Assembly: GCF_017312725.1 (NCBI RefSeq)
Contig: NZ_BOPO01000026.1
Span: forward strand, 1-39,469
Direction of reading: 5' to 3'
Source: Actinocatenispora comari
Lineage (GTDB): Bacteria; Actinomycetota; Actinomycetes; Mycobacteriales; Micromonosporaceae
Length of the DNA: 39,469 nucleotides
Position 1 is the first letter of the stretch. The number at the start of each line of letters is the position of its first letter. Positions 1,248 to 19,128 of the stretch are shown piece by piece. Both the position numbers and the translations under genes were made by a program. Under the pieces are notes generated by a model. It was not told the DNA's origin. It did not search any database and saw nothing but the letters and a program-made list of their open reading frames with translations.

Positions 1248-1892
1248 TCAGCGGGTGCCGTGGGTGCGGACGGCGGCGAGCAGACCGTCGGCGACCGGGA
1301 GCAGCGCGGGCAGCCAGTCGTCGCTGTCGCGTACCGACTTGGCCAGCTCGCGCAGCGTCACGCTCTGCGGGTCGCGGGCGGCCGGGTCGGGCACCCGGCC
1401 GCCGCCGAGCGCGCCGGCCACCGCCACCACGCCGCCCGGCCGCAGCAGCCGGTACGCCTCCGCCACGTACTGCGGGTACTCGGCCCGGTCGCCGTCGACG
1501 AACACCATGTCGTACGCGCCGTCGGCCAGCCGCGGCAGCACGTCCAGCGCGCGGCCGGCGATCAGCCGGGTCCGGGACGGGGTGAACCCGCCCTCCCGGA
1601 ACGCCAGCCGCGCCTGCCGCTGGTGCTCCGGCTCCAGGTCGATGGTGGTGAGCACGCCGTCCGGGCGCATGCCGCGCAGCAGCCAGACCGAGCTGACGCC
1701 GACCCCGGTACCGACCTCGACCACCGCCCGAGCACCCGCTGCCGCGGTGAGCAGGCGCAGTGCGGCGCCGGTACCGGTATCCACCGGATCGACGCCGATC
1801 TCGGTCGAACGGGCACGGGCGTCCGCCAGTACGTAGTCTTCGGCAACGTACGACTCGGCGAAAACGTGGCTCTGCGGTCCCAGGGTGGCCAT
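1248..1892 (-). CDS. Class I SAM-dependent O-methyltransferase (Rv1220c-like)
   Basis: The 214-residue protein has the Rossmann motifs of family 3 O-methyltransferases (catechol/caffeoyl-CoA type). Motif I is VEVGTGVG (58-65), an acidic strand end IDLEP lies at 84-88, the metal/catalytic region FVDGDR at 131-136, and LLRPGGVV follows at 149-156. It would transfer a methyl group from S-adenosylmethionine to a hydroxyl of an unknown small molecule in the cytosol. The length is normal for the family. In mycobacteria the orthologue Rv1220c stands next to sigE, rseA, htrA and tatB. Here it is divergent from the htrA-like gene with only 164 bases between starts, and sigE/rseA are missing. The start is ATG with a weak ribosome binding site. 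Confidence 0.88.
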   Translation of the reverse strand: MATLGPQSHVFAESYVAEDYVLADARARSTEIGVDPVDTGTGAALRLLTAAAGARAVVEVGTGVGVSSVWLLRGMRPDGVLTTIDLEPEHQRQARLAFREGGFTPSRTRLIAGRALDVLPRLADGAYDMVFVDGDRAEYPQYVAEAYRLLRPGGVVAVAGALGGGRVPDPAARDPQSVTLRELAKSVRDSDDWLPALLPVADGLLAAVRTHGTR

Positions 1893-2056
1893 GGCCTAGA
1901 GCCTAAGGAATGATCCGTCCGACTCGGGGATGCCATGACGTGTAATCCTGGAATACGGCGCCACCGGGCTGTCCGACGCGGGCGAACACGGTGCCACCGC
2001 ACGCTCACCGCGTGCACGACCGGGATACCCGGACACTGGGGAGAGGTGGACCAAGG

Positions 2057-3403
2057 GTGACCGACGGCAGCACGACCGGTTTCCCCGACCCGCAGTGGTC
2101 GAGTGGCGGGCAGCGCCCACCGACCGCGTGGCCGGGCGGCGCGCCGCAGCCCCCGACGCCGCAACCATCGTCCCCACCCCAGCCCTCGTCGGCCTGGTGG
2201 TCCAGCGGCGGCGGCCACGATCCGTGGCGGAACCCGCAGACCCCGGCGGTACTGCTGCACCAGACCAACGGTGAGCCGGGGCCGCCGCTCGATCCGGTCC
2301 CCGACCCGCCGGCGCCCGGCGCGGCGCCCCGCCGTTCGGTCGGGCTGGCGGTGACGATCGTGGTGGCGTTGCTGGCCGGCGCGCTGGGCGGCGCGCTCGG
2401 CTACCTCGGCGCCGCCGGCGGCGGCACCGGCCACGGCGTGCTCGGCGCCTCCGCGACCGACAAGCCCAAGGCCGCCGACCGGGCCCCGGAGTCGGTGTCG
2501 GCGGTGGTCAAGAAGGCGCTGCCGAGCGTGGTGACGATCCTGATCCGGACCGACAAGGTGGAGGGCAACGGCTCCGGCTTCGTCATCTCCTCGTCCGGCT
2601 ACATCCTGACCAACAACCACGTCGCGGCGGCCGGTTCCGGCGGCGAGCTGAAGGTCGCGTTCTCCGACGGCACCACGGCCGACGCCACCGTCAAGGGCAC
2701 CGACCCGGAGTCCGACCTGGCGGTGCTCAAGGTCGACAAGAGCGGGCTGACCCCGATCAAGTTCGGCGACTCCGACCGGATCGCGGTCGGTGACCCGGTG
2801 ATCGCGATCGGCGCGCCGTACGGGCTGTCCAACACCGTCACCACCGGCATCATCAGCGACCTCGACCGGCCGGTGATCACCGGCAAGGACGAGAGCAGCG
2901 AGGCGTACATGGCGGCGATCCAGACCGACGCCGCCATCAACCACGGCAACTCGGGCGGTCCGCTGCTGGACGGCGCCGGCCGGGTCATCGGCGTCAACAC
3001 CGCCATCCGCACCGCGGACGAGTCCGGCTCGGACGAGAACAGCGGCGGCAACATCGGCCTGGGCTTCTCGATCCCGATCAACCAGGCCAAACGGGTCGCC
3101 GACGACATCATCCAGACCGGCAAGGCCCGCCGCACCGTGATCGGCGCCACCGTGGACAGCTCGTACGACAGCACCGCCGGGGCGCGGATCAACAAGGTCG
3201 TCGGCGGCGGCCCCGCCGACAAGGCCGGGCTCAAGGACGGCGACGTGATCGTGCGCTACGACGGCCAGCTCGTCGGCTCCGGTACCGACCTGATCGCGTT
3301 CGTGCGCAAGGACGCACCCGGCACGGTCGTCCCGGTCGAGTACGCGCGGGACGGTGGCAAGCACAGCGCCAACATCACCCTCGGCGCCGCCACCCCGAAC
3401 TGA
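2057..3403 (+). CDS. HtrA/DegP-like membrane-anchored serine protease with PDZ domain
   Basis: A 448-residue trypsin-like protease of the HtrA family, which degrades or senses misfolded proteins outside the membrane. The first 90 or so residues are Pro-rich and cytoplasmic, followed by one TM helix (about 94-118). The protease domain has the full triad: His188 in TNNHV, Asp220 in ESDLAVL and Ser299 in GNSGGP. A PDZ domain follows (about 360-445, with GPADKAGLKDGDVI). I chose the GTG at 2057 because GGGGAGAGG stands about ten bases upstream; an in-frame ATG at 1991 has no such site. It matches the mycobacterial Rv1223/htrA position, upstream of tatB. The sigE-rseA pair that normally precedes it is absent. 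Confidence 0.9.
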   Translation: MTDGSTTGFPDPQWSSGGQRPPTAWPGGAPQPPTPQPSSPPQPSSAWWSSGGGHDPWRNPQTPAVLLHQTNGEPGPPLDPVPDPPAPGAAPRRSVGLAVTIVVALLAGALGGALGYLGAAGGGTGHGVLGASATDKPKAADRAPESVSAVVKKALPSVVTILIRTDKVEGNGSGFVISSSGYILTNNHVAAAGSGGELKVAFSDGTTADATVKGTDPESDLAVLKVDKSGLTPIKFGDSDRIAVGDPVIAIGAPYGLSNTVTTGIISDLDRPVITGKDESSEAYMAAIQTDAAINHGNSGGPLLDGAGRVIGVNTAIRTADESGSDENSGGNIGLGFSIPINQAKRVADDIIQTGKARRTVIGATVDSSYDSTAGARINKVVGGGPADKAGLKDGDVIVRYDGQLVGSGTDLIAFVRKDAPGTVVPVEYARDGGKHSANITLGAATPN

Positions 3404-3405
3404 CC

Positions 3406-3445
3406 GGTACCGGCGACCCGATACCTCCGGTTCGTCGCCGGTGCC
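3406..3445 (+). terminator. Probable terminator after the HtrA-like gene
   Basis: An inverted repeat starts three bases after the stop codon. The left arm GGTACCGGCGAC pairs with the right arm GTCGCCGGTGCC through twelve pairs including one G-T, with a 16-base loop. There is no clear T-run, which is common in actinomycetes. It suggests that tatB is transcribed separately. Confidence 0.6.
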
Positions 3446-3575
3446 GGGTTCGCCGGGCGACCGCGTCGGAGAATGCCACCGACCGCGGACTCCCACACCG
3501 GCCGGCGCGGTGCGTAAGGTGGGTGCGTTGCCCGGGGTTCGCGACGACCCCGGGCCCGCAGGGTGAGGAGCGTGG

Positions 3576-3971
3576 ATGTTCGACAGTCTCGGCTGGCCGG
3601 AGATCTTGGTGCTCGTCCTCATCGGCCTGTTCATCTTCGGCCCGGACAAGCTGCCGAAGTTGATCTCCGACGGGGTCAACATGATCCGGCAGCTGCGCCG
3701 GATGGCCACCAACGCCACCGGCGACCTCTCCCGCGAGCTCGGCACCGACATCTCGCTGGAAGACCTGCACCCGAAGACGTTCGTGCGCAAGCACATCCTG
3801 TCCGAGGACGACCAGGACGCGATCCTGCGGCCGTTCAAGGAGGTCTACTCGGAGGCCAGCGACACCGCCGGCTCCCTCGACCTCAACTCGGCACTCAACG
3901 ACGAGGACGACGCGCCGGCGGTCGACTCCGGCTCGCGCCGCCGCCCCCGCTTCGACGTCGACGCCACCTGA
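3576..3971 (+). CDS. tatB: Sec-independent protein translocase subunit TatB
   Basis: A 131-residue protein with the Tat A/B layout: an N-terminal membrane helix (about 5-23, ILVLVLIGLFIFGPDKLP) with the conserved FGPDKLP hinge, then an amphipathic helix (NMIRQLRRMA) and an acidic tail. TatB works with TatC as the receptor for twin-arginine signal peptides. A client is encoded nearby: the serine hydrolase at 6491 has a Tat signal. A strong GGTGAGGAG site lies upstream of the ATG. The location downstream of htrA matches Mycobacterium (Rv1224) and Streptomyces. Its stop is separated by only three bases from the convergent sigma-factor gene. Confidence 0.9.
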   Translation: MFDSLGWPEILVLVLIGLFIFGPDKLPKLISDGVNMIRQLRRMATNATGDLSRELGTDISLEDLHPKTFVRKHILSEDDQDAILRPFKEVYSEASDTAGSLDLNSALNDEDDAPAVDSGSRRRPRFDVDAT

Positions 3972-3974
3972 CCG

Positions 3975-4931
<957 letters not shown>

Positions 4932-5104
4932 GCGTCCCCCCGGGCATCGACTCGGCCACCTCGGCCGATCAGGGCGCCGAGTCTACGACGGACCCCCGAC
5001 GTTTTCGGGCTGCTCGCGTCAGCTCCGACCGAATGACCGATGACGATCCCGCGGCCGGGGCCGCGACCCGGGTACTTCGAGACGGGCCCGCAGGGAACGG
5101 GCGA

Positions 5105-6253
5105 TCAGGCCGGGGACAGCCCCAGCGAACGGCCGGCCAGGCTCTCCCGGCGCACCGCGAGCCGCTCGGCCACCGCCGACAGCGCCACCGCGGCGGGCGA
5201 CTCCGGATCGGACAGCACCACCGGGTCGCCGGCGTCGCCGGCCTCCCGTACCCGGGTGTCCAGCGGGATCTGACCCAGCAGCGGCACCTCGGCGCCGATC
5301 GTGGTGGACAGCGTCTCGGCGACCCGGGCGCCACCGCCGGCACCGAAGACCTCCATCCGCTCCCCGGACGGCAGCTCCAGCCAGGACATGTTCTCCACCA
5401 CGCCGACCAACCGCTGATGGGTCTGCAGCGCGATCGCGCCGGCCCGCTCGGCCACCTCGGCGGCGGCCAGCTGCGGCGTGGTCACCACCAGCAGCTCGGC
5501 GGTGGGCAGCAGCTGGGCGATGGAGATCGCCACGTCGCCGGTACCCGGCGGCAGGTCGAGCAGCAGCACGTCCAGATCGCCCCAGTACACGTCGGCGAGG
5601 AACTGGGTGAGCGCCCGGTGCAGCATCGGGCCGCGCCACACCACCGCCGCGTTGCCCTGGGTGAACATCCCGATCGAGATGACCTTCAGGCCGTGCGTCG
5701 CCTGCGGCGGCATGATCATGTCCTCGACCCGGGTCGGGCGGTCGGTGACGCCGAGCATCCGCGGCACCGAGTGGCCGTAGATGTCCGCGTCGACCACGCC
5801 GACCGACAGGCCGCGCGCGGCCAGCGCCGCGGCCAGGTTGACCGTCACGCTCGACTTGCCGACGCCACCCTTGCCGGAGGCCACCGCGTACACCCGGGTG
5901 CGCGAGCCGGGCTGGGCGAACGGGATGACCGGCTCGCCGCCGCCCGCGCCGCCGCGCAGCTTGGACTGCAGGTCGCGACGCTGCTGCTCGGTCATCACGC
6001 CGAAGTCGACCCGGACCGAGGAGACGCCCGGCACCGCGCCGACCTCGCGCGAGATGTCGGACTGCAGGGTGTCGCGCAGCGGGCAGCCGGCGACGGTCAG
6101 CAGCAGGCCGACGGTGACGCCGCCGTCCGCGTCGATGTCGATCGAGCGGACCATGTCCAGCTCGGTGACGGGGCGGCGGATCTCCGGATCCTGCACCTTC
6201 GACAGCGCGGTGCGGATCTGCGGTTCGAGCTCGGCAATGGCAGGGGCGGACAT
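5105..6253 (-). CDS. mrp: Mrp/NBP35-type iron-sulfur cluster carrier ATPase
   Basis: A P-loop ATPase of about 382 residues. An N-terminal MIP18 (DUF59) domain covers residues 5-100, with the conserved Cys57 in VAGCPLRD. The ATPase domain carries GKGGVGKS (127-134), DADIYGHS, DLPPGTGD and TTPQ. The family binds and passes on Fe-S clusters in the cytosol. The C-terminal CxxC cluster ligand of E. coli ApbC/Mrp is missing: the ENMS motif is followed by WLELPSGE. From memory the mycobacterial protein also lacks it, so this looks like an actinobacterial trait. I chose the ATG at 6253 with GGGGA just upstream; 6262 is the alternative. A small GC hairpin (5050-5065) lies downstream. It corresponds to Rv1229c. 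Confidence 0.9.
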   Translation of the reverse strand: MSAPAIAELEPQIRTALSKVQDPEIRRPVTELDMVRSIDIDADGGVTVGLLLTVAGCPLRDTLQSDISREVGAVPGVSSVRVDFGVMTEQQRRDLQSKLRGGAGGGEPVIPFAQPGSRTRVYAVASGKGGVGKSSVTVNLAAALAARGLSVGVVDADIYGHSVPRMLGVTDRPTRVEDMIMPPQATHGLKVISIGMFTQGNAAVVWRGPMLHRALTQFLADVYWGDLDVLLLDLPPGTGDVAISIAQLLPTAELLVVTTPQLAAAEVAERAGAIALQTHQRLVGVVENMSWLELPSGERMEVFGAGGGARVAETLSTTIGAEVPLLGQIPLDTRVREAGDAGDPVVLSDPESPAAVALSAVAERLAVRRESLAGRSLGLSPA

Positions 6254-6490
6254 GTTCCCCATGCTACGAGCCCGTTCGCGGTTCGCCCGCCGAGGTCGAC
6301 GTGACCCGCGGCTCGTCACCCGCGCCCGGATGCCGGCGGCCGGCCCGCGGTGACCGACTCGTACCGTTCCCTGGTGGGATGTTCCGATCCCGGACCGCGC
6401 CGGCGAGGGGGAAAGCCCGCGGAAAGGGTTTACCTGGCCCATTCGACTGGTGCAGGATTCCTTCGGTATCTGGACGGATGGAGGACACGC

Positions 6491-8299
6491 ATGTCCGAGA
6501 TTTCCCGACGGTCATCGGTTTCCCGACGGTCGCTGCTGCTCGGCGGTGCCGGTGGAGCCGCCGCCATCGCCCTCGGCGGTACCGGCGCCCTCGCGCCCGG
6601 CGCCGCCGCCGAGGCCGCGCCCGTCGGCCACCGGGGCGACCCACCCACCGCCACCGAGGCCGACATCCGGTTCAGCCCCGGCCGCACCCTGCGCACCGGC
6701 CGCCCCGGCCAGGCCGGCCTGGTCGGCGACACCGTCCAGGGGATGCCGGACGACCTCGCCCGCTACCTGACCACCACCCCGGAGAACCCCAGCCACCCGA
6801 TGTACGCGGGCGCCGCGGTCATCGCCGTCAAGGACGGCGTGATCGTGCAGCACGCCGCGGTCGGCGACGCGGTGCGCTACACCCTCGACGGCACCACCGT
6901 GGTGGAGCTGCCCGCCGACCAGCGCATCGCCGCGACCACCGACACCATCTGGGACCTCGCCTCGATGTCGAAGCTGTTCACCGCCACCTCGGTGATGCAG
7001 CTGATCGAGCAGGGCAAGGTCGACCTGAACGCGCCGGTCGTCACCTACCTGCCGGCGTTCGCCTCGCACGGCAAGTCCGACATCACCGTGCGCAACCTGC
7101 TCACCCACACGAGCGGGCTGATCCCCGACCCGATCCCGTCGCTGTGGGCCGGCTACCAGACGATCCCGGAGCGCAAGGCGGCGATCCTGGACACCACGCC
7201 GTCGGCGCCGCCGGACACCCAGTACGTCTACTCCGACCTCAACTTCCTCACCCTCGGGTTGATCGTCGAGACGATCAGCGGCCAGAGCCTCGACGGGTAC
7301 GTCCGCGAGCACATCACCGAGCCGCTCGGCCTGCACGACACCATGTACAACCCGCCCGCCGCGCTCCAGCACCGCGTCGCGGCCGAGGAGTACGAGCCGT
7401 GGGCCGACCGCGGGCTCGTCTGGGGCCAGGTGCACGACGAGAACGCCTGGGCGCTCGGCGGCGTCGCCGGCCACGCCGGCGTCTTCTCCACCACCCACGA
7501 CCTCGCCATCTTCGCCCAGATGTACCTCAACGGCGGCCGGTACGGCCGGGCCCGGATCCTGAAGGACGAGACCGTGCGGCTGATGCTGCACGACTACAAC
7601 GGCGCCCAGTTCCCGTACGACACGCACGGGCTGGCCTGGGAGCTCGGCCTCAACTGGTACATGGGTGCGCTCGGCTCGCCGGTCACCTTCGGGCACACCG
7701 GCTACACCGGCACCTCGATCGTGGTGGACCCGCTGTCGCACTCGTTCGTCATCCTGCTCACCAACCGGGTGCACCCGAGCCGCGACTGGGGCTCCAACAA
7801 CATCTCCCGCCGGGTCGCCGCCGACGACCTCGGGCTGGCGCTGCCGGTACGGGACACCCACCACGCCTACTACAGCCGCACCGACCACGCGGACAGCACG
7901 CTCACCGTGCCGGTTCCGGACGGGGCGACCACGCTGCGGTTCCGCCTCTGGTACGACACCGAGCCGCTGTCGGACTTCCTCACCCTGCAGGCGTCGGGCA
8001 ACGGCACCGACTTCACCGGGCTGAGCTGCGACCTCGCCGGCGGGCCGTGGTCCTGGACCGCCGGGGACGGCTCGGTCAACGGGTACGGCGGGCGGCGCTG
8101 GCTGTCCGGCACCGCGCAGGTACCGGCCGGCACCACGGCGCTGCGCTGGCTCTACGCCACCGACACCAACTCGCAGGGCCGCGGCGTGTACGTCGACGAC
8201 GTCACCGTACTGGGGCGCCACGGCGTGCTGTTCGACTCGCGCCGCTCCGCCGACGCGGCACGGATTTCGCTGGTTGGCTGGACGCGGCTCGACGGCTGA
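6491..8299 (+). CDS. Tat-exported beta-lactamase-fold serine hydrolase with C-terminal beta-sandwich domain
   Basis: A 602-residue protein. The N-terminus has a twin-arginine signal (VSRRSLLLGG, then a hydrophobic stretch ending in AAAEA), so it is probably exported folded through the Tat system. The class C beta-lactamase/PBP-like domain shows Ser158-x-x-Lys161 in ASMSKLF, Tyr247-Ser-Asp249 and His402-Thr-Gly404. Such enzymes act as esterases, D-Ala-D-Ala peptidases or beta-lactamases; the substrate cannot be read off. Residues from about 455 on form a separate beta-rich domain (TLRFRLWYDTE ... GVYVDDVTVLG), reminiscent of the accessory domain of immune-inhibitor peptidases. I chose the ATG at 6491 because GGAGG lies six bases upstream and the Tat signal begins there. 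Confidence 0.88.
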   Translation: MSEISRRSSVSRRSLLLGGAGGAAAIALGGTGALAPGAAAEAAPVGHRGDPPTATEADIRFSPGRTLRTGRPGQAGLVGDTVQGMPDDLARYLTTTPENPSHPMYAGAAVIAVKDGVIVQHAAVGDAVRYTLDGTTVVELPADQRIAATTDTIWDLASMSKLFTATSVMQLIEQGKVDLNAPVVTYLPAFASHGKSDITVRNLLTHTSGLIPDPIPSLWAGYQTIPERKAAILDTTPSAPPDTQYVYSDLNFLTLGLIVETISGQSLDGYVREHITEPLGLHDTMYNPPAALQHRVAAEEYEPWADRGLVWGQVHDENAWALGGVAGHAGVFSTTHDLAIFAQMYLNGGRYGRARILKDETVRLMLHDYNGAQFPYDTHGLAWELGLNWYMGALGSPVTFGHTGYTGTSIVVDPLSHSFVILLTNRVHPSRDWGSNNISRRVAADDLGLALPVRDTHHAYYSRTDHADSTLTVPVPDGATTLRFRLWYDTEPLSDFLTLQASGNGTDFTGLSCDLAGGPWSWTAGDGSVNGYGGRRWLSGTAQVPAGTTALRWLYATDTNSQGRGVYVDDVTVLGRHGVLFDSRRSADAARISLVGWTRLDG

Positions 8300-8316
8300 G
8301 CCAAGATGACGGCAAC

Positions 8317-8355
8317 CGGCCGCGTGCCCTTTCCACCCCTTGGGGCACGCGGCCG
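8317..8355 (+). terminator. Strong stem-loop terminator after the serine hydrolase
   Basis: Left arm CGGCCGCGTGCCC (8317-8329) and right arm GGGCACGCGGCCG (8343-8355) pair perfectly over 13 bases around a 13-base loop rich in T and C. It starts 17 bases after the stop codon and separates the hydrolase from the GNAT gene. Confidence 0.75.
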
Positions 8356-8412
8356 TCGTCTCGGCTCCGGCGCGGCACCGTGCCCGGGCCGTACCGGACG
8401 GGGGTGGTGCCG

Positions 8413-8955
8413 GTGAGCCGCGAGATCGTGACGTGGTCCGCCGACGAGGTGGTGGCCAACGCCGACCGGCTGGCCGCCGTGTACGGGGTCGCGTTCGCCG
8501 CGTACGGCGAGACCGACGAGGACACCGCGGCGTTCCGGCACCGGTCGTTGCCGATCCACGCCGGCCGGGACGACTTCCGCTGCGTCGTCGCCCTCGACGG
8601 CGACGAGCTGACCGGCTTCGGCTACGGCTACCAGGGCGCGCCCGGGCAGTACTGGACCGACCGGGTCGCCGACCTCGCCCCGCCGGCGGTGGTCCGCGGC
8701 TGGCTCGGCGGCCACTTCGAGCTGGTGGAGCTCGCGGTACTGCCGGCCAGCCAGGGTTGCGGTCTCGGCGGCGCCCTGCACGACGCGCTGCTCGCCGACC
8801 TGCCGCACCCGGCCGCGCTGCTGTCCACCTGGCAGTACGACACGCCCGCCCGGCGGCTCTACCTGCGCCGCGGCTGGCAGCCGCTGGCCGAACTGCCCGA
8901 CGCCACCCTGATGGGCACCCGGCTGCCGTTCACCGCCACGGCCCGTCCCGCCTGA
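8413..8955 (+). CDS. GNAT-family N-acetyltransferase
   Basis: About 180 residues with the GNAT layout: an N-terminal half with FRCVVALDGDELTGFGYGY, then the core ELAVLPASQGCGLGGALHDALL. The latter is motif A with the Q-x-x-G-x-G/A acetyl-CoA pyrophosphate loop (QGCGLGG), and ARRLYLRRGW is motif B. It would acetylate an amine of an unknown small molecule or protein. Several in-frame GTG codons (8380, 8404, 8407, 8413) are possible starts; 8413 has a G-run at a good distance. It stands alone between a terminator and a convergent gene. Confidence 0.82.
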   Translation: MSREIVTWSADEVVANADRLAAVYGVAFAAYGETDEDTAAFRHRSLPIHAGRDDFRCVVALDGDELTGFGYGYQGAPGQYWTDRVADLAPPAVVRGWLGGHFELVELAVLPASQGCGLGGALHDALLADLPHPAALLSTWQYDTPARRLYLRRGWQPLAELPDATLMGTRLPFTATARPA

Positions 8956-9089
8956 CCCGCCGGCGGATCGGGTACTCCTGCCGGACCTCCGGCCCGAATC
9001 CAGGACCTGTGGCCGGCGAGTCGTGCCCGACGCGCCCGGCGCAGGTCCGGGGTCGGCCGCGGCTGCGCGATCGCCGCGCGGGGCGAGGG

Positions 9090-10553
9090 TCAGTTGGCGT
9101 CGTCGGCGCCCGCGCTGGCCGGCGGGTTGGCCGGCGGCGACGTCGGCGCCTCGCTGGTCGGAGCCTCGGTCGGCGACGGCGCCGTGCTGTGCGTCGGGGT
9201 CGGCGCGCCGGTGCGCGTCGGCCCGGTACTCGGGTGCTGGTCCGGCCGCGCACTGTCGCTCGGGCTCGGCGAGTGCGAACCGGTCGGGCCGGCGGAGTGG
9301 CCGTTGCCGCCGGTGTCGTCGGACCCGTCGGTCGACCGTCCGTGGTGACTGCCGCCGTCGAGCACCGCGCCGGCGGTGCTGCCGCTGTCGCCGTGTCCCC
9401 ACAGCGCGGAGAACGACGTGCCCATCAGCGCCTCGATCCCGGTCAACGCGCCGAACGCCAGCACGAAGATCAGCGCGGCACTGCCGACCAGGATCGCCGC
9501 ACGCCGGGGGAGCGGTCGCCGGCGCGGCGCCCCGTACACGCCGCCCGGCCGGCCCGCCCCGCTGCCCCTGGCCGGGCCGGCGGCGTCGGCCGCGCTCGCG
9601 CCGGGCCGCGCCGGCTCCGCGCCACCGCCGAGCGGGCGGGTGGCCTCGTCGCGCGGGCCGAGTGGCTCGCTCGCTTCGCCGAGCGGTCGGGTCGGTTCGT
9701 CGCCGGCGCCGAGCGGTCGGGTCGGCTCGTCGTTCGTGCCGTGCGGCCGGGTCGGTTCGTCGTTCGCGCCGAGCGGTCGGGTCGGTTCGTCGAGCGGTCC
9801 GGTCGGTACGGTGCGTCCGCCGTGCGGTCGGGTCGGCTCGCCGTGTGTGTCGAGCGGTCGGGTCGGTTCGTCGAGCGGTCCGGTCGGTACGGTGCGTCCG
9901 CCGTGCGGTCGGGTCGGCTCGCCGTGTGTGTCGAGCGGGCGGGTGGCCTCGTCGTTCGGGTCGAGCGGGCGGGTCGGTTCGCTGCCGTCGGGCTGCGGGA
10001 CCGCGGCCCGCAACGGCTGGCTGGGTATCCGTGCCGTCGCCGAGACGACCTGGGCCTGCCCAGCGCCGGCCCGCCCGAGCGCCGGCGCACCGCCGACCGT
10101 GGCGATGCCCTGGCCGGTCCGGGCGCCCCGTACCGGCGCGGTGCCCCGGCCCGGGGCCGGCCCGGTACCGGTGCTCGGAGGCACGGTACGGCTGGTCTCG
10201 GCGGTCGTGGCGCCGGCGAGGGCGGCGGCGCCGCTGCCGATCGCGGCCCGGGCGTCGCCGGGGGCGGCCCGGGTGGCGCCGTTCCGGCGCAGCACCTTGA
10301 CCTGCGCGTCCTTCAGCGTCTCCTTGCCGCGCTTGAGCGACGCGGTGTACAGCGCGTTGCCGACCGTGGCGACGACGCTGACCAGAGCGGTACCCACGAC
10401 GGTGCCGGCGACGCCGAGCGCGGACGCGGCGACCGCGGCCGAGACGGCCGCGGCGACCGACGCGACGATCTGTACCCCGGACAGCTCGATCCGGCGCCGC
10501 TTGCTGCGAGTCGCGGGCTCACCGGTGGCGGCTCGGGTCTCGTCGGGGGGCAC
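9090..10553 (-). CDS. Two-TM protein with a TRPL/TRPH repeat region and Ser/Thr/Pro-rich tail
   Basis: I do not recognise a named family. The 487 residues fall into zones. A hydrophobic Ala/Val-rich stretch covers about 26-70 (GVQIVASVAAAVSAAV). A basic linker follows (KRGKETLKDAQVKVLRR). Residues about 190-305 hold ten copies of E[PA]TRP[LH] separated by four to thirteen residues. One TM helix lies at about 352-372 (AAILVGSAALIFVLAFG), and a Ser/Thr/Pro/Gly tail of some 110 residues is probably outside the cell. The GTG at 10553 has GAGAGGA six bases upstream; an ATG at 10589 lacks a site. The acidic-Pro-Thr-Arg-Pro repeats could be targets of Ser/Thr kinases, which is speculation. The repeat DNA contains a perfect 81-base duplication. 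Confidence 0.72.
   Translation of the reverse strand: MPPDETRAATGEPATRSKRRRIELSGVQIVASVAAAVSAAVAASALGVAGTVVGTALVSVVATVGNALYTASLKRGKETLKDAQVKVLRRNGATRAAPGDARAAIGSGAAALAGATTAETSRTVPPSTGTGPAPGRGTAPVRGARTGQGIATVGGAPALGRAGAGQAQVVSATARIPSQPLRAAVPQPDGSEPTRPLDPNDEATRPLDTHGEPTRPHGGRTVPTGPLDEPTRPLDTHGEPTRPHGGRTVPTGPLDEPTRPLGANDEPTRPHGTNDEPTRPLGAGDEPTRPLGEASEPLGPRDEATRPLGGGAEPARPGASAADAAGPARGSGAGRPGGVYGAPRRRPLPRRAAILVGSAALIFVLAFGALTGIEALMGTSFSALWGHGDSGSTAGAVLDGGSHHGRSTDGSDDTGGNGHSAGPTGSHSPSPSDSARPDQHPSTGPTRTGAPTPTHSTAPSPTEAPTSEAPTSPPANPPASAGADDAN
9771..9932 (-). repeat. Perfect 81-base tandem duplication in the TRP-repeat gene
   Basis: Positions 9771-9851 and 9852-9932 are identical base for base. Each copy encodes 27 residues (starting DTHGEPTRPHG on the minus strand and ending EPTRPL). 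The pair sits inside a longer degenerate array of EPTRPL-type units (about 9640-9985). Identity including third codon positions indicates a recent slippage or recombination event that kept the reading frame. Confidence 0.95.
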
Positions 10554-10745
10554 CGTCGTCCTCTCGGGGGGTAGGGGAGGCCGGCGCATCGGTGGTCGTG
10601 GCCGTACCTCGGGACCCTTCCAGAGTGGCGGCGACCTGCTGCTGCGTTCAGTGGTTCGGGACCGATGTGGGAGACGACACCGGATTCCGGTTACGCACGC
10701 CACTGCAACCGCGACGCACCGTGTCGGCGCGGACGCGGTCCGCCG

Positions 10746-11267
10746 TCACGGCTCCGGCGTGGCCGCGGGTACCGGATTCGGCGGGTCCCGGCGGTCGATC
10801 TCCTCGATCAGCCGGGACAGCTCCGAGCGGACGAAGTCGCGGGTGGCCACCTCGCTCAGCGCGATCCGCAGCGCGGCGATCTCCCGGGCCAGGTAGTCGG
10901 TGTCCGCCTTCTGCGCCGCGGCCCGGCGGCGGTCGGCGTCGGCCTGGATCCGGTCCCGGTCGTCCTGCCGGTTCTGCGCCAGCAGGATCAGCGGCGCCGC
11001 GTACGACGCCTGGGTGGAGAAGAACAGGTTGAGCAGGATGAACGGGTACGGATCCCAGCGCAGCCCGGCCAACCCGATCAGGTTGACGCTCACCCACAGG
11101 ATGACCACCACCGTCATCACCACGATGAACTGGGCGGTACCCATGAACCGGGCGGCGGCCTCGGCGAACCGGCCGAACGTGTCCGCGTCCCAGCGCGGCA
11201 GCCGGAACCGGCCCGGCACCCGCGGCTGATCCAGCCGGCCGCGCACCGGCCGCTCCCCGTCAGGCAC
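10746..11267 (-). CDS. DUF1003 membrane protein
   Basis: A 173-residue protein with the DUF1003 core: two TM helices (about 45-68, FIVVMTVVVILWVSVNL; about 74-97, PFILLNLFFSTQASYAAPLILL) with the conserved WDPYPFILLNLFFSTQA run. A coiled-coil-like basic helix follows (QNRQDDRDRIQADADRRRA). The function is unknown. It begins with GTG inside the last eight bases of the MgtE-N/CBS gene, so translation is probably coupled. The same pair occurs in mycobacteria and Streptomyces. A 6-bp hairpin (10729-10743) follows the stop closely and may end the transcript. Confidence 0.87.
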   Translation of the reverse strand: MPDGERPVRGRLDQPRVPGRFRLPRWDADTFGRFAEAAARFMGTAQFIVVMTVVVILWVSVNLIGLAGLRWDPYPFILLNLFFSTQASYAAPLILLAQNRQDDRDRIQADADRRRAAAQKADTDYLAREIAALRIALSEVATRDFVRSELSRLIEEIDRRDPPNPVPAATPEP

Positions 11268-12510
11268 GGTCCCGGTCCCGCCAGTCCTCGGGCAGCAGGT
11301 GGTCGAGCACGTCGTCCACCGTCACCACGCCGACCAGCCGGTTCAGCTCGTCCACCACCGGCATCGCGACCAGGTCGTAGGTCGCCATCTGTCGGGTCAC
11401 CTCGGCGATCGGCGTCTGCGGCCCGACCGGATCCAGGTCGTCCACCACCACGCCGCCGACCAGATCCGACGGCGGCTCCCGGAGCAGCCGCTGGAAGTGC
11501 ACCATGCCCAGGAACCGGCCGCTCGGCGTCGCCGCCGGCGCCCGGCTGACGAACACCTGCGCCGCGACCACCGGCGAGCGCTTCGGCTCCCGGATCGCAG
11601 CCAGCGCCTCGGCGATCGTCACGTCCGGCAGCAGGATCACCGGATTGGTCGTCATGATCGACCCGGCGGTACCGGCCGCGTAGTCCATCAGCCGCCGCAC
11701 CGGCGCCGCCTCCGCCGGCTCCATCAGCGCGAGCAGCTCGTCCTTCTCCGGCTCGGGCAGCTCGGCCAGCACGTCCGCCGCGTCGTCCGGATCCATCGAC
11801 TCCAGGACGTCCGCGGCGCGCTCGACGCCGAGCGACTCCAGGATCTCCACCTGGTCGTCGTTGGGCAGCTCCACCAGCACGTCGGCCAGCCGGTCGTCGT
11901 GCAGCGCGCCGGCCACCTCCAGCCGGCGCCGGCCGGACAGGTCCTGCAGCGTGTTCGCCAGGTCCGCGGCGCGCATCTGGTCGAGCACGGCGAGCAGGTT
12001 CGCGGTGCCCTGCTCGCCGGCCGCGTCCGACAGCCCGGTGACCTGCTCCCAGTCGACCTGGCGCAGATGACCGCGCCGGCCCAGATGGGTCGGGGTCGCG
12101 CGCACCGCCAGCCGGCGCAGCGACCACTCACCGGAGCGCTCCTGCTCCATCCCGACGTCAACCACACTGCCCGGCCGGGGGTCGCTGCCCGGTTCGGTGA
12201 CGCTGACCCGCCGGTCCAGCAGGTCCTCCAGCACCAGCGCCTCGCCCGGCTTCTTCTCGAACCGCTTCAGGTTCAGGGTGCCGGTCGACAGCAGTACCGC
12301 GTCCGCCTCGATCGTGGTGACCCGGCCGATCGGCACGAAGATCCGGCGCCGGACCCCGATCTCGACCACCAGGCCGACCACCCGCGGCGGCGCGTTGCCC
12401 GGGCGCATCCGGATCACCGCGTCGCGCACCCGGCCGACCTGGTCGCCGTTCGGGTCGTACACGACGATGCCGGCCAGGCGCGCCACGTACACCCTGGTCG
12501 CCGCTGCCAC
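11260..12510 (-). CDS. MgtE N-domain/CBS domain protein (Rv1232c-like)
   Basis: A 416-residue soluble protein. Residues about 5-85 resemble a PRC-barrel (GIVVYDPNGDQVGRVRDAVIRM). Residues about 165-280 form the MgtE N-terminal superhelix (ADLANTLQDLSGRRRLEVAGALHDDRLADVL split over several helices). Residues about 285-405 hold two CBS motifs (GSIMTTNPVILLPDVTIAEAL and TYDLVAMPVVDELNRLVGVV, read as separate segments). The MgtE channel helices are absent, so this is not itself a magnesium transporter; it may sense Mg2+ or nucleotides for a partner. The neighbouring DUF1003 membrane protein, with which it overlaps, is a candidate partner. It starts at GTG 12510. Confidence 0.86.
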   Translation of the reverse strand: MAAATRVYVARLAGIVVYDPNGDQVGRVRDAVIRMRPGNAPPRVVGLVVEIGVRRRIFVPIGRVTTIEADAVLLSTGTLNLKRFEKKPGEALVLEDLLDRRVSVTEPGSDPRPGSVVDVGMEQERSGEWSLRRLAVRATPTHLGRRGHLRQVDWEQVTGLSDAAGEQGTANLLAVLDQMRAADLANTLQDLSGRRRLEVAGALHDDRLADVLVELPNDDQVEILESLGVERAADVLESMDPDDAADVLAELPEPEKDELLALMEPAEAAPVRRLMDYAAGTAGSIMTTNPVILLPDVTIAEALAAIREPKRSPVVAAQVFVSRAPAATPSGRFLGMVHFQRLLREPPSDLVGGVVVDDLDPVGPQTPIAEVTRQMATYDLVAMPVVDELNRLVGVVTVDDVLDHLLPEDWRDRDRA

Positions 12511-16678: not shown

Positions 16679-18613
16679 TCAGACCAGTCGCAACTGCTCC
16701 GCCGGCCGCCCTGCCGGCGGCGCGCCCGGTGCGGCCTCGCCGACGTCCCGGAAGTTCTCGGCGGAGCGGTCCGGCAGGCCGTGCCGGCGGCAGGCGGACC
16801 GCACCCGGGCGACGACGGTGCGCTGGTAGGCGGCGGGTGCGTAGCTGCCGTTGCGGTAGAGCCGCCGGTACGGCTGGACCAGCCGCGGGAAGTGCCGCTC
16901 CAGGAACGACTGGTACCACTCGCGGGCGCCCGGCCGCAGGTGCAGCACGATCGGCGTGATGCTGGTGACGCCGGCATCGACCAGCGCCGCCACGGTGCGG
17001 TCCAGCTCGGCCTCCTGGTCGGTGAGACCGGGCAGGATCGGTGCCATCAGCACCGAGCAGCCGATGCCCGCGTCGGTGAACCGGCGGACCAGATCGAGTC
17101 GACGAGACGGTGCCGGGGTGCCCGGCTCGACCAGCCGCCACAGCGCCTCGTCCAGGAACCCGATGGAGAACGCGACCGACACGTCGGTGGTCGCCGCGGC
17201 CTGGGTGAGCAGATCCTGGTCGCGCTGGATCAGCGTGCCCTTGGTCAGGATCGAGAACGGGTTGGCGTGGTCGCGCAGCGCGCCGAGGATCTCCCGCATC
17301 AGCCGGTAGCGCCCCTCGACCCGCTGGTACGGATCGACGTTGGTGCCCATCGCGATCGGCTCACCGCACCACCGCGGCGAGGCCAGCTCGCGCCGCAACA
17401 GCGGCCCCGCGTTGACCTTCACGATGATCTTCGAGTCGAAGTCGTGCCCCGCGTCCAGATCGAGATAAGTATGCGTATTCCTCGCAAAGCAGTTGTGGCT
17501 GATCACGCCGTTGGCGACGAAGTCCCCGGTCCCGGTCGTGATGTCGTACATCTCGCGTTCCTCGCCGAGATCCTCGATCGAGACGACCCGCAGGTCCGCC
17601 GCGCACTTGACCGCGGTTCCGCTCAGCGCGCGCTTGCGGTCGATCGCCGGATCGGTCAGTGCGAAGAAGCGCATCCGCTGCGGCAGACCGCCCCGAATCC
17701 GCACGTACTGGAGGCTGTCGGCTCGGTCTCGCCGCTCGACGACGGGGTCGAAGTCGAATCGTCGCAGCGCCGCGCTGGCCCGGCCGATGAGCTCGGGGTC
17801 GGTGTTGGCGATGCGAAAGATGCCCTGGCTGTGGCTCCCCTCCGCGTCGAAGACGCCCGCAAGGAAACCGCGATCCCACTCCGCCGTCGTGGCCGCCGGA
17901 TAGGCGATGAGCTCCCGGGTGCGGGCCACATCGTCGCGTCGCGAACTGGTGCCGTCGCCTCGGACGATCCCGGACAGGTACCCGCGGCGATAGTCCGGCC
18001 CCGCATCGACCGGGACGGGGAGCGATCCGATGCCCATCAGCGAGTTGCCGGTGGTCAGGTACGGCCGTCGTGCGGCGCCGTTCATCGCGCCGCGGACGTG
18101 CTTCCAGCCGCGCTCGGTCAGGAAACGGTGATCGCCACTGGCCACGATGGTCGTGCCGTCCGCGAGGGTGACCCGGTACGCGTGTTTGACGGTTCGCCAG
18201 TGCGCCAGCACCTGAGTCGGGACGTACCTCCGGTAAACGCCGTCGCGACGGGTTCCGTAGATCTCGTCGCCGACCTGCAACTCGGCGATCGGACGCGAGC
18301 GCCCGTCCGCGAGCAGCACCTGCGTCGCGCCGTCCAGGCAATACACACACGCGTGGGTGCAGCCTCGGTAGGGGTTGATGGTCCAGCGGAACGGCATGGC
18401 GGACTCGCCCGGGACGCGGTTGATCAGCGACTTGGCCTGGATCTCGATCGCCATCGCGTCGTCGGTGCCGGCGATGACCGGACCGGTCGGGGCGAGCTGC
18501 AGCCCGGCCCGACCCGAGCCGCGTCGCTGCGCCGACGGATCGGGCAGGCCGAGCGGCAGCGCCTGCTCGGCGAGATGGTCGGCCCGCTGCTGTTCCCAAC
18601 GCATGCCCTCCAT
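16679..18613 (-). CDS. Rv2578c-family radical SAM protein interrupted by an intein
   Basis: The precursor has 644 residues. After removal of residues 92-374 an enzyme of about 361 residues remains, matching the Rv2578c/SplB-like radical SAM family. The extein reads INPYRGCTHACVY before the intein and CFARNTHTYLDL after it. The cluster motif CxxxCxxC (Cys85, Cys89, Cys375) is therefore complete only after splicing. Other family parts follow: MGTNVDPYQ, FSILTKGTLI, VLMAPILPGLTD and VLHLRPGAREW. COG1533 members are linked to DNA-lesion repair, but the reaction of this subfamily is not known to me. A perfect LexA box abuts the ATG at 18613. A second in-frame ATG at 18604 (MRWE...) resembles the start of most relatives and may be the true one. 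Confidence 0.92.
   Translation of the reverse strand: MEGMRWEQQRADHLAEQALPLGLPDPSAQRRGSGRAGLQLAPTGPVIAGTDDAMAIEIQAKSLINRVPGESAMPFRWTINPYRGCTHACVYCLDGATQVLLADGRSRPIAELQVGDEIYGTRRDGVYRRYVPTQVLAHWRTVKHAYRVTLADGTTIVASGDHRFLTERGWKHVRGAMNGAARRPYLTTGNSLMGIGSLPVPVDAGPDYRRGYLSGIVRGDGTSSRRDDVARTRELIAYPAATTAEWDRGFLAGVFDAEGSHSQGIFRIANTDPELIGRASAALRRFDFDPVVERRDRADSLQYVRIRGGLPQRMRFFALTDPAIDRKRALSGTAVKCAADLRVVSIEDLGEEREMYDITTGTGDFVANGVISHNCFARNTHTYLDLDAGHDFDSKIIVKVNAGPLLRRELASPRWCGEPIAMGTNVDPYQRVEGRYRLMREILGALRDHANPFSILTKGTLIQRDQDLLTQAAATTDVSVAFSIGFLDEALWRLVEPGTPAPSRRLDLVRRFTDAGIGCSVLMAPILPGLTDQEAELDRTVAALVDAGVTSITPIVLHLRPGAREWYQSFLERHFPRLVQPYRRLYRNGSYAPAAYQRTVVARVRSACRRHGLPDRSAENFRDVGEAAPGAPPAGRPAEQLRLV
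17492..18340 (-). mobile_element. Intein with LAGLIDADG homing endonuclease
   Basis: A 283-residue intein (precursor residues 92-374). It begins with Cys1 (CLDGATQVLLADG, block A) and has a block B-like GTTIVASGDHRFLT. Two LAGLIDADG helices follow: YLSGIVRGDG at 212-221 and FLAGVFDAEG at 250-259. It ends with MYDITTGTGDFVANG (block F) and VISHN before the +1 Cys (block G, His-Asn/Cys). Each LAGLIDADG copy keeps its terminal acidic-Gly pair, so the endonuclease could be active. The splicing residues Cys1, block-B His, His-Asn and Cys+1 are all present, so splicing should be functional; that is inference from known intein chemistry. Confidence 0.95.
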
Positions 18614-18629
18614 TCGAACACACGTTCGA
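18614..18629 (-). promoter_or_regulatory. Perfect LexA/SOS box
   Basis: The palindrome TCGAACACACGTTCGA matches the actinobacterial/Bacillus-type SOS box (TCGAAC-N4-GTTCGA) at every defined position. It ends one base before the radical SAM start codon. LexA binding there should block transcription until DNA damage. A scan by eye of other GAAC sites in the window found no second match. Confidence 0.82.
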
Positions 18630-18744
18630 TCGATCGTCCACCGAAACCGCAGATCCGGCCGGCGCGGTCGCTTCCGGGGGCGGTGTCGGGCGACACCGGC
18701 GGGATCGGTGGCCGGCGGCGGTGAAGAGGGGCAGGATTGGCGGT

Positions 18745-19128
18745 ATGACCGGCGATCGCCCCACGTTTCTGTTCGATGGCGACTGCGCGTTCTGCTCGAG
18801 CTGCGCGGGGTTCATCGAGCGGCACATCCCGACCCGGGCCGCGGTGCTGCCCTGGCAGCGGGTCGACCTCGACGCGCTGGGCGTCAGCCAGCGGCAGGTC
18901 GACGAGTCGGTGCAGTGGATCGACGCGGCCGGCGTCGCCTCCGGGCCGGACGCGATCGCCCGGCTGCTGCGCGACGCCGGTTCGTTCTGGCGGCCGCTGG
19001 GGGTGGTGCTCGGTGCGCCGCCGGTGCGCTGGCTGGCCTGGCCGGTGTACCGGTGGATCTCCCGGCACCGTGACCTGATGCCCGGCGGGACCGCGGCCTG
19101 CGCGCTCCCCGCCGCCGACCGCCCCTGA
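18745..19128 (+). CDS. DCC-family (DUF393) thiol-disulfide oxidoreductase
   Basis: A 127-residue protein. The family signature is near the N-terminus: FLFDGDCAFCSSCAGF (DxDCxxC form, Cys at about 14, 17 and 20), followed by the usual IDAAGVASGPDAIARLL and a C-terminal WPVYRWISRHR. DCC proteins are thought to be thioredoxin-like redox proteins; their partners are unknown. In many actinomycetes DCC and HTTM genes occur together, and here an HTTM gene lies convergently 53 bases away. GCAGGA is eight bases before the ATG. It is divergent from the radical SAM gene. Confidence 0.87.
   Translation: MTGDRPTFLFDGDCAFCSSCAGFIERHIPTRAAVLPWQRVDLDALGVSQRQVDESVQWIDAAGVASGPDAIARLLRDAGSFWRPLGVVLGAPPVRWLAWPVYRWISRHRDLMPGGTAACALPAADRP

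Follow-up and report, generated by a model that had tools for sequence, protein, structure and literature searches.

The mycobacterial gene Rv2578c is under LexA control. In Streptomyces venezuelae, the radical SAM gene vnz_31145 is reported to carry a LexA ChIP site and to respond to mitomycin C with a 19.97-fold increase in RNA, and a similarity to enzymes that repair thymine crosslinks caused by UV is claimed for it (PMC9380542). We consider it likely that vnz_31145 is an Rv2578c-family gene. Furthermore, comparative genomics has placed splB under SOS control in alpha- and beta-Proteobacteria (PMC3323433), and likewise SplB-like COG1533 genes in Bacteroidetes (PMC8565304), and SplB-like radical SAM genes have been linked to ImuB-C operons (PMC3765255). 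A UVC-induced gene of the spore photoproduct lyase (SPL) family was described in a non-sporing actinobacterium (Curtobacterium), the authors of that report wondering about damage control (PMC12029717). The Streptomyces gene SAM40697_5543, called a member of the Rv2578c family, is the attB site of phage Samy (i.e. the target of a serine integrase), and the same paper calls a DNA-repair link speculative (PMC12924846); its main text holds no mention of LexA or of inteins. The string '2578' is absent from the main text of the mycobacterial LexA paper PMC8151990, and among the papers listed by the literature searches none deals with an Rv2578c-family intein or with the promoter layout presented below.

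The stretch of DNA analysed here (39,469 nt, hereafter the window) contains a gene of this family and, next to it, a palindromic site:
16679..18604, minus strand: intein-containing radical SAM gene of the Rv2578c family, 641 codons plus stop (NF038136, NF038135)
18614..18629, no strand assigned: LexA operator (SOS box) TCGAACACACGTTCGA, perfect TCGAAC-N4-GTTCGA (by consensus match and conservation in relatives)

The encoded protein passes the cut-offs of both family models (NF038136: 789.2 bits, cut-off 700; NF038135: 463.6 bits, cut-off 430), and is thus a member of the Rv2578c family and of its intein form, with no difference from either. The LexA site claimed by an earlier note on this DNA is present at 18614-18629, where TCGAACACACGTTCGA agrees with the actinobacterial SOS consensus at 12 of 12 defined positions. 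It is the sole site without mismatch in the window, which at up to three mismatches holds 25 sites (14.6 in shuffles). The expected number of perfect sites is 0.0013 per window and 0.25 per genome under a first-order Markov model of the window, and 0.0005 and 0.10, respectively, under a base-composition model; the genome itself (7.96 Mb) contains nine perfect boxes and none of the reversed-pattern control (64 and 8 sites, respectively, when one mismatch is allowed).

The company of the box within this genome is that of DNA-damage genes in several cases. The genome encodes LexA (TIGR00498, 247.8 bits), and the genome-wide motif scan proposed by the earlier note found the box to mark lexA (a perfect box in the region shared with a divergent LysM gene, adjoined by a one-mismatch box) and recA (one mismatch, 83 nt upstream of the probable start), as well as ruvC (perfect, 12 nt away) and two imuA' genes (perfect, 11 nt away). 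As lexA, ruvC, imuA' and recA carry copies of it, TCGAAC-N4-GTTCGA was taken as the SOS box of this genome. Both imuA' genes (near-identical, at L019:1567-2481 and L023:1567-2481) are without a Pfam match; the one that was scanned is confirmed by NF058630, and the other is read as its near-copy. At L019 the next long reading frame after imuA' is a convergent ATP-dependent ligase and not imuB. Four of the nine perfect boxes adjoin a P450 gene, a PNPOx-like gene, an FtsK-like neighbourhood and a hydroxyacid dehydrogenase gene (L016, L020, L021 and L022), for which we know of no SOS role.

Relatives were gathered by NF038135 searches in the phylum, family, order and class, in overlapping samples of which 27/246, 103/121, 71/121 and 80/197 genomes, respectively, exceeded the cut-off. 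A subset of the matching rows, uneven in kinship, was taken as 219 loci (99 as L024-L122, with the window locus L045 included, and 120 other rows picked for spread), and 211 of these were usable (left out: L048, L051, L140, L155, L194, L201, L230 and L241; other scans showed a box at L048, L051, L230 and L201). Boxes were counted in the 110 nt upstream of the start, which was set by a short motif, so that the assigned start may be off in a few loci outside the class; the count was confined to this region because the codons for P/T-E-Q-L/M-F-E resemble the box, and in three loci from outside the class (L128, L133 and L134) these are the first codons of the gene, a trap for motif scans. At up to two mismatches the box was present in 173/211 loci, and at up to one mismatch in 137/211, as compared to 1/211 and 0/211 for the reversed pattern, and 0.3% and 0% for plain permutations of the upstream regions. 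Outside the window's class 37 of 49 loci had the box (up to two mismatches), and the supposition of the earlier note that this control is old is supported by its occurrence at the radical SAM gene in a range of taxa that extends from the genus of the window to lineages beyond the class. Named genera in which such a box lies at 7-11 nt include Micromonospora, Nonomuraea, Nocardiopsis, Mycobacterium, Nocardia, Gordonia, Amycolatopsis, Arthrobacter, Microbacterium and Agrococcus. Within a set of 80 named loci (overlapping partly with the 219), 45 had a box with at most one mismatch (reversed control: 0/80, and 1/80 at up to two), and 52 of the 74 with a recognised start had one with at most two mismatches at 7-11 nt.

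The 38 loci without a box at up to two mismatches comprise 12 of the 13 Streptomyces-type loci, all five of the lowest-scoring loci outside the class, and 21 others. The Streptomyces-type loci (L024-L029, L105, L107-L109, L111, L116 and L121; among the named loci L254, L255, L257-L259, L261, L262 and L268) carry GGGAAC-N4-GTTCTA (3 mismatches), which retains the core GAAC-N4-GTTC but not the flanks; it lies mostly 30-33 nt ahead of the start, the leader is of GGAGG type, and the 13 loci have no intein. These orthologues have neither the perfect box nor the leaderless layout, although strong induction is reported for a radical SAM gene of S. venezuelae. One family of the class contributes four family members with weaker scores (L197-L200, 304.6-378.2 bits), which in two of these four genomes are second copies; L197-L199 have no box within three mismatches, and L200 has one with two. 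In a further locus (L201, ~1375-11400) the radical SAM gene is interrupted by some 10 kb of prophage-like DNA that includes a large serine recombinase and a tape-measure gene, and the box of the radical SAM gene (one mismatch) is intact. As with phage Samy, the integration site of this element is an SOS-driven gene, and one may speculate that damage-triggered excision could restore the radical SAM gene just as LexA releases it.

The position of the box in relation to the gene was examined by means of the following features:
18602..18604, minus strand: probable true start codon ATG (MRW...), expected at about the transcript start (leaderless), from profiles and relatives
18612..18617, minus strand: TCGAAT, a -10-like hexamer that overlaps the box at its 3' arm (inferred from comparison)
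18635..18640, minus strand: -35-like hexamer TGGACG, matching TTGACA at 4/6 positions, 17 bp from the -10-like hexamer

The box was held by the earlier note to touch the start codon; it does touch an in-frame ATG (18613-18611, minus strand), but the probable start is the ATG at 18604. The match to the NCBIfam profiles starts at MRW, i.e. at residue 4 as counted from the ATG at 18613, and in 111 of the 148 relatives aligned to the N-terminus a box with up to two mismatches ends 7-11 nt before the MRW start. Because the profiles begin at MRW and the spacing between box and MRW is nearly fixed in relatives, the ATG at 18613, which overlaps TCGAAT, is probably not the start, whereas the one at 18604 lies at a distance of 9 nt. 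In 100 of the 111 aligned relatives the box is followed, at the second base, by a T, which would be the final T of the -10-like TCGAAT; hexamers matching TTGACA at 4/6 positions or more are spaced from the -10 by 17 bp in 55 of the 111 and by 18 bp in 16 (at most 4 for any other spacing). The layout in the window is TGGACG (18640-18635), 17 bp, TCGAAT (18617-18612), 7 nt and ATG (18604). A generic sigma-70 promoter scan of 18500-18800 found none; its rule requires the second hexamer to have A as its second base, which excludes TCGAAT, so that the promoter assignment rests on the comparison of relatives. Given the position of the -10-like hexamer, transcription would start at about ATG 18604 and the radical SAM mRNA is expected to be leaderless. 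As far as can be judged from sequence, the operator sits so as to block the putative promoter, an arrangement that appears conserved in the orthologues.

With regard to the enzyme itself, the window protein has a CX3CX2C motif, which is split by the intein, and an inteinless relative (L059; structure model with mean pLDDT 90.4 and pTM 0.85) was used for comparison of folds. The best six matches of this model are spore photoproduct lyases (E 6.3e-10 to 7.7e-9, TM 0.57-0.60, rmsd 4.3-4.5, 15-16% identity), as are the best five of a profile search (E 1.7e-4 to 1e-3), and an EPGT...RL motif is common to SPL and the Rv2578c-family relatives. Hydrogen transfer in SPL involves the residues Cys140 and Tyr98. 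The position of Tyr98 (the residue after the third cluster Cys) is occupied by Phe in 76 of 81 relatives, and across the non-cluster Cys columns no conserved counterpart of Cys140 was found, the best column reaching 49/81. The SPL model TIGR04070 does not match the window protein at 0.001, and of five relatives three score 18.5-21.5 bits (cut-off 400) and two are unmatched. As Tyr98 is not kept, no conserved Cys stands in for Cys140 and TIGR04070 stays far from its cut-off, we regard the protein as SplB-like in fold. The alternative that the gene encodes a true actinomycete spore photoproduct lyase, induced by UV damage, draws on the fold and profile matches, on the common motif and on the UVC-induced Curtobacterium gene (likened by its name, 'spore photoproduct lyase family'; PMC12029717); we consider it unlikely in view of the low identity, the large rmsd, the replacement of Tyr98, the lack of a conserved Cys140 counterpart and the failure of TIGR04070, and caution is also counselled in PMC12924846.

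Judged by regulation and fold, the substrate of the enzyme is most likely a DNA or nucleotide lesion. We tentatively suggest, as a possibility that could well prove wrong, that Rv2578c enzymes are core members of the actinobacterial SOS response which process or reverse such a lesion by a radical SAM reaction unlike that of SPL, with the invariant Asp137, Tyr139 and Glu143 (L059 numbering) replacing Cys140 and Tyr98. The DNA-damage role put forward in the earlier note is thus supported in its direction only, by the company of boxes at lexA, recA, ruvC and imuA', by SPL as the nearest fold, and by the SOS control that others have reported for SplB-like genes and for vnz_31145.

The cluster motif of the window protein is interrupted by:
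17492..18340, minus strand: intein, 283 aa, inside the CX3CX2C motif, with a LAGLIDADG match; ends CLDG...ISHN/C

The Cys that opens the intein (residue 1) occupies the third cluster position, and the third Cys of the extein itself comes as the +1 residue. Cys1, the terminal His-Asn, the +1 Cys and an endonuclease domain identify a class 1 intein with a LAGLIDADG endonuclease; the latter may be decayed, as 283 aa is shorter than the other long inteins (288-379 aa). At the CX3CX2C site, to which the search was confined, 73 inteins of 143 to 379 aa were delimited among the 219 loci, while five further flagged loci, in which an intein was not delimitable, appear inteinless. That SOS induction and intein might form a two-step switch, in which damage or redox state also gates splicing, would accord with the location of the intein, which interrupts the cluster motif and has a cluster ligand as its +1 Cys, with the stress-responsive splicing of mycobacterial DnaB (PMC6195587), and with the higher frequency of boxes with up to one mismatch in loci with an intein (57/70 versus 80/128, p 0.006, uncorrected for kinship). 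On the other hand, inteinless relatives carry the same box, and at up to two mismatches its presence is independent of the intein (63/70 with versus 109/128 without, Fisher p 0.39; the 128 exclude the 13 Streptomyces-type loci, with which the count is 110/141). Moreover, within the genus the box is perfect throughout, irrespective of whether the intein is missing (L203), reduced to a mini-intein (189 aa in L204, 205 aa in L205) or 283 aa long (window), and the patchy occurrence and length range of the inteins fit a decaying homing element. We therefore judge such a switch to be improbable, and the claim that SOS induction is coupled to splicing is not supported. We read the intein as a passenger, which needs to be spliced for the cluster site to form, and not as a partner of SOS control.

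On the far side of the box lies a divergent gene:
18721..19128, plus strand: DCC1-like thiol-disulfide oxidoreductase gene, divergent, ATG at 18746 possible (PF04134, 58.1 bits)

The two genes have the upstream region with the box in common, and the box, at 116 nt from ATG 18746, could in principle serve the DCC1-like gene, or both genes. No conserved partner gene was found, as no neighbour family occurs in more than 13 of the 80 named loci, and the radical SAM protein therefore probably acts alone. Since it is the radical SAM gene that the box accompanies from locus to locus while neighbours do not recur, and since the geometry matches the radical SAM promoter, the assignment to the DCC1-like gene was rejected as very improbable. 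A chance palindrome, or a mere promoter component, is hardly tenable: the -10-like element overlaps the 3' arm, so promoter constraint could explain part of the conservation, yet the 5' arm, outside both hexamers, is kept as well (C 100, G 110, A 85, A 110 and C 109 of 111 relatives, preselected for a box with up to two mismatches, which favours arm conservation), and the genome holds nine perfect sites versus none for the control.

Taken together, LexA control of the radical SAM gene is very likely, and we assign a probability of about 0.88 to the reading in which the box is a LexA operator that blocks the radical SAM promoter until damage occurs, the product being a SplB-like enzyme after splicing. 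The box itself, the genes that it accompanies in the genome, and its position and conservation are directly observed, and from them we infer the following course of events. Once bound, LexA would occupy the -10 region of a sigma-70-like promoter, together with most of the spacer up to the -35, and would keep RNA polymerase off, the transcript otherwise beginning at or next to ATG 18604. Upon DNA damage, RecA would trigger the self-cleavage of LexA and the radical SAM gene would be released. Its product would be a stand-alone SplB-like radical SAM enzyme, and in the present genome the polypeptide would first have to splice out the intein that interrupts the [4Fe-4S] cysteine motif. As the box is kept in most of the relatives examined, with or without an intein, it points to a DNA-damage role of the enzyme.

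This reading places an uncharacterised enzyme family among the DNA-damage genes across much of the phylum, and the promoter layout indicates how the radical SAM gene would be switched on; a direct biochemical search for the substrate is therefore worthwhile. It further sets the regulation of the gene apart from the intein, which is a patchy element, and bears, as far as regulation can, on the doubt expressed in PMC12924846 that the link to repair is merely speculative.

In comparison with described systems, the nearest relation by solved fold and sequence profile is to spore photoproduct lyase (4fhc, 4k9r), from which the window family differs by Phe in place of Tyr98, by the lack of a conserved Cys for Cys140 and by having no endospore tie. 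The box reported for vnz_31145 (TCGACCGTTCGCTC at -61; PMC9380542) is unlike the boxes of the present loci, including those of Streptomyces type (n=13), in which GGGAAC-N4-GTTCTA lies mostly 30-33 nt from the start. The splB genes of Proteobacteria and the SplB-like genes of Bacteroidetes, likened here by their published description, are under LexA as in the window, in other phyla and by different LexA motifs of their own. SOS control of SplB-like genes is thus already known in kind, and what is added here, within the literature searched, is the breadth of its conservation and the layout of the promoter.
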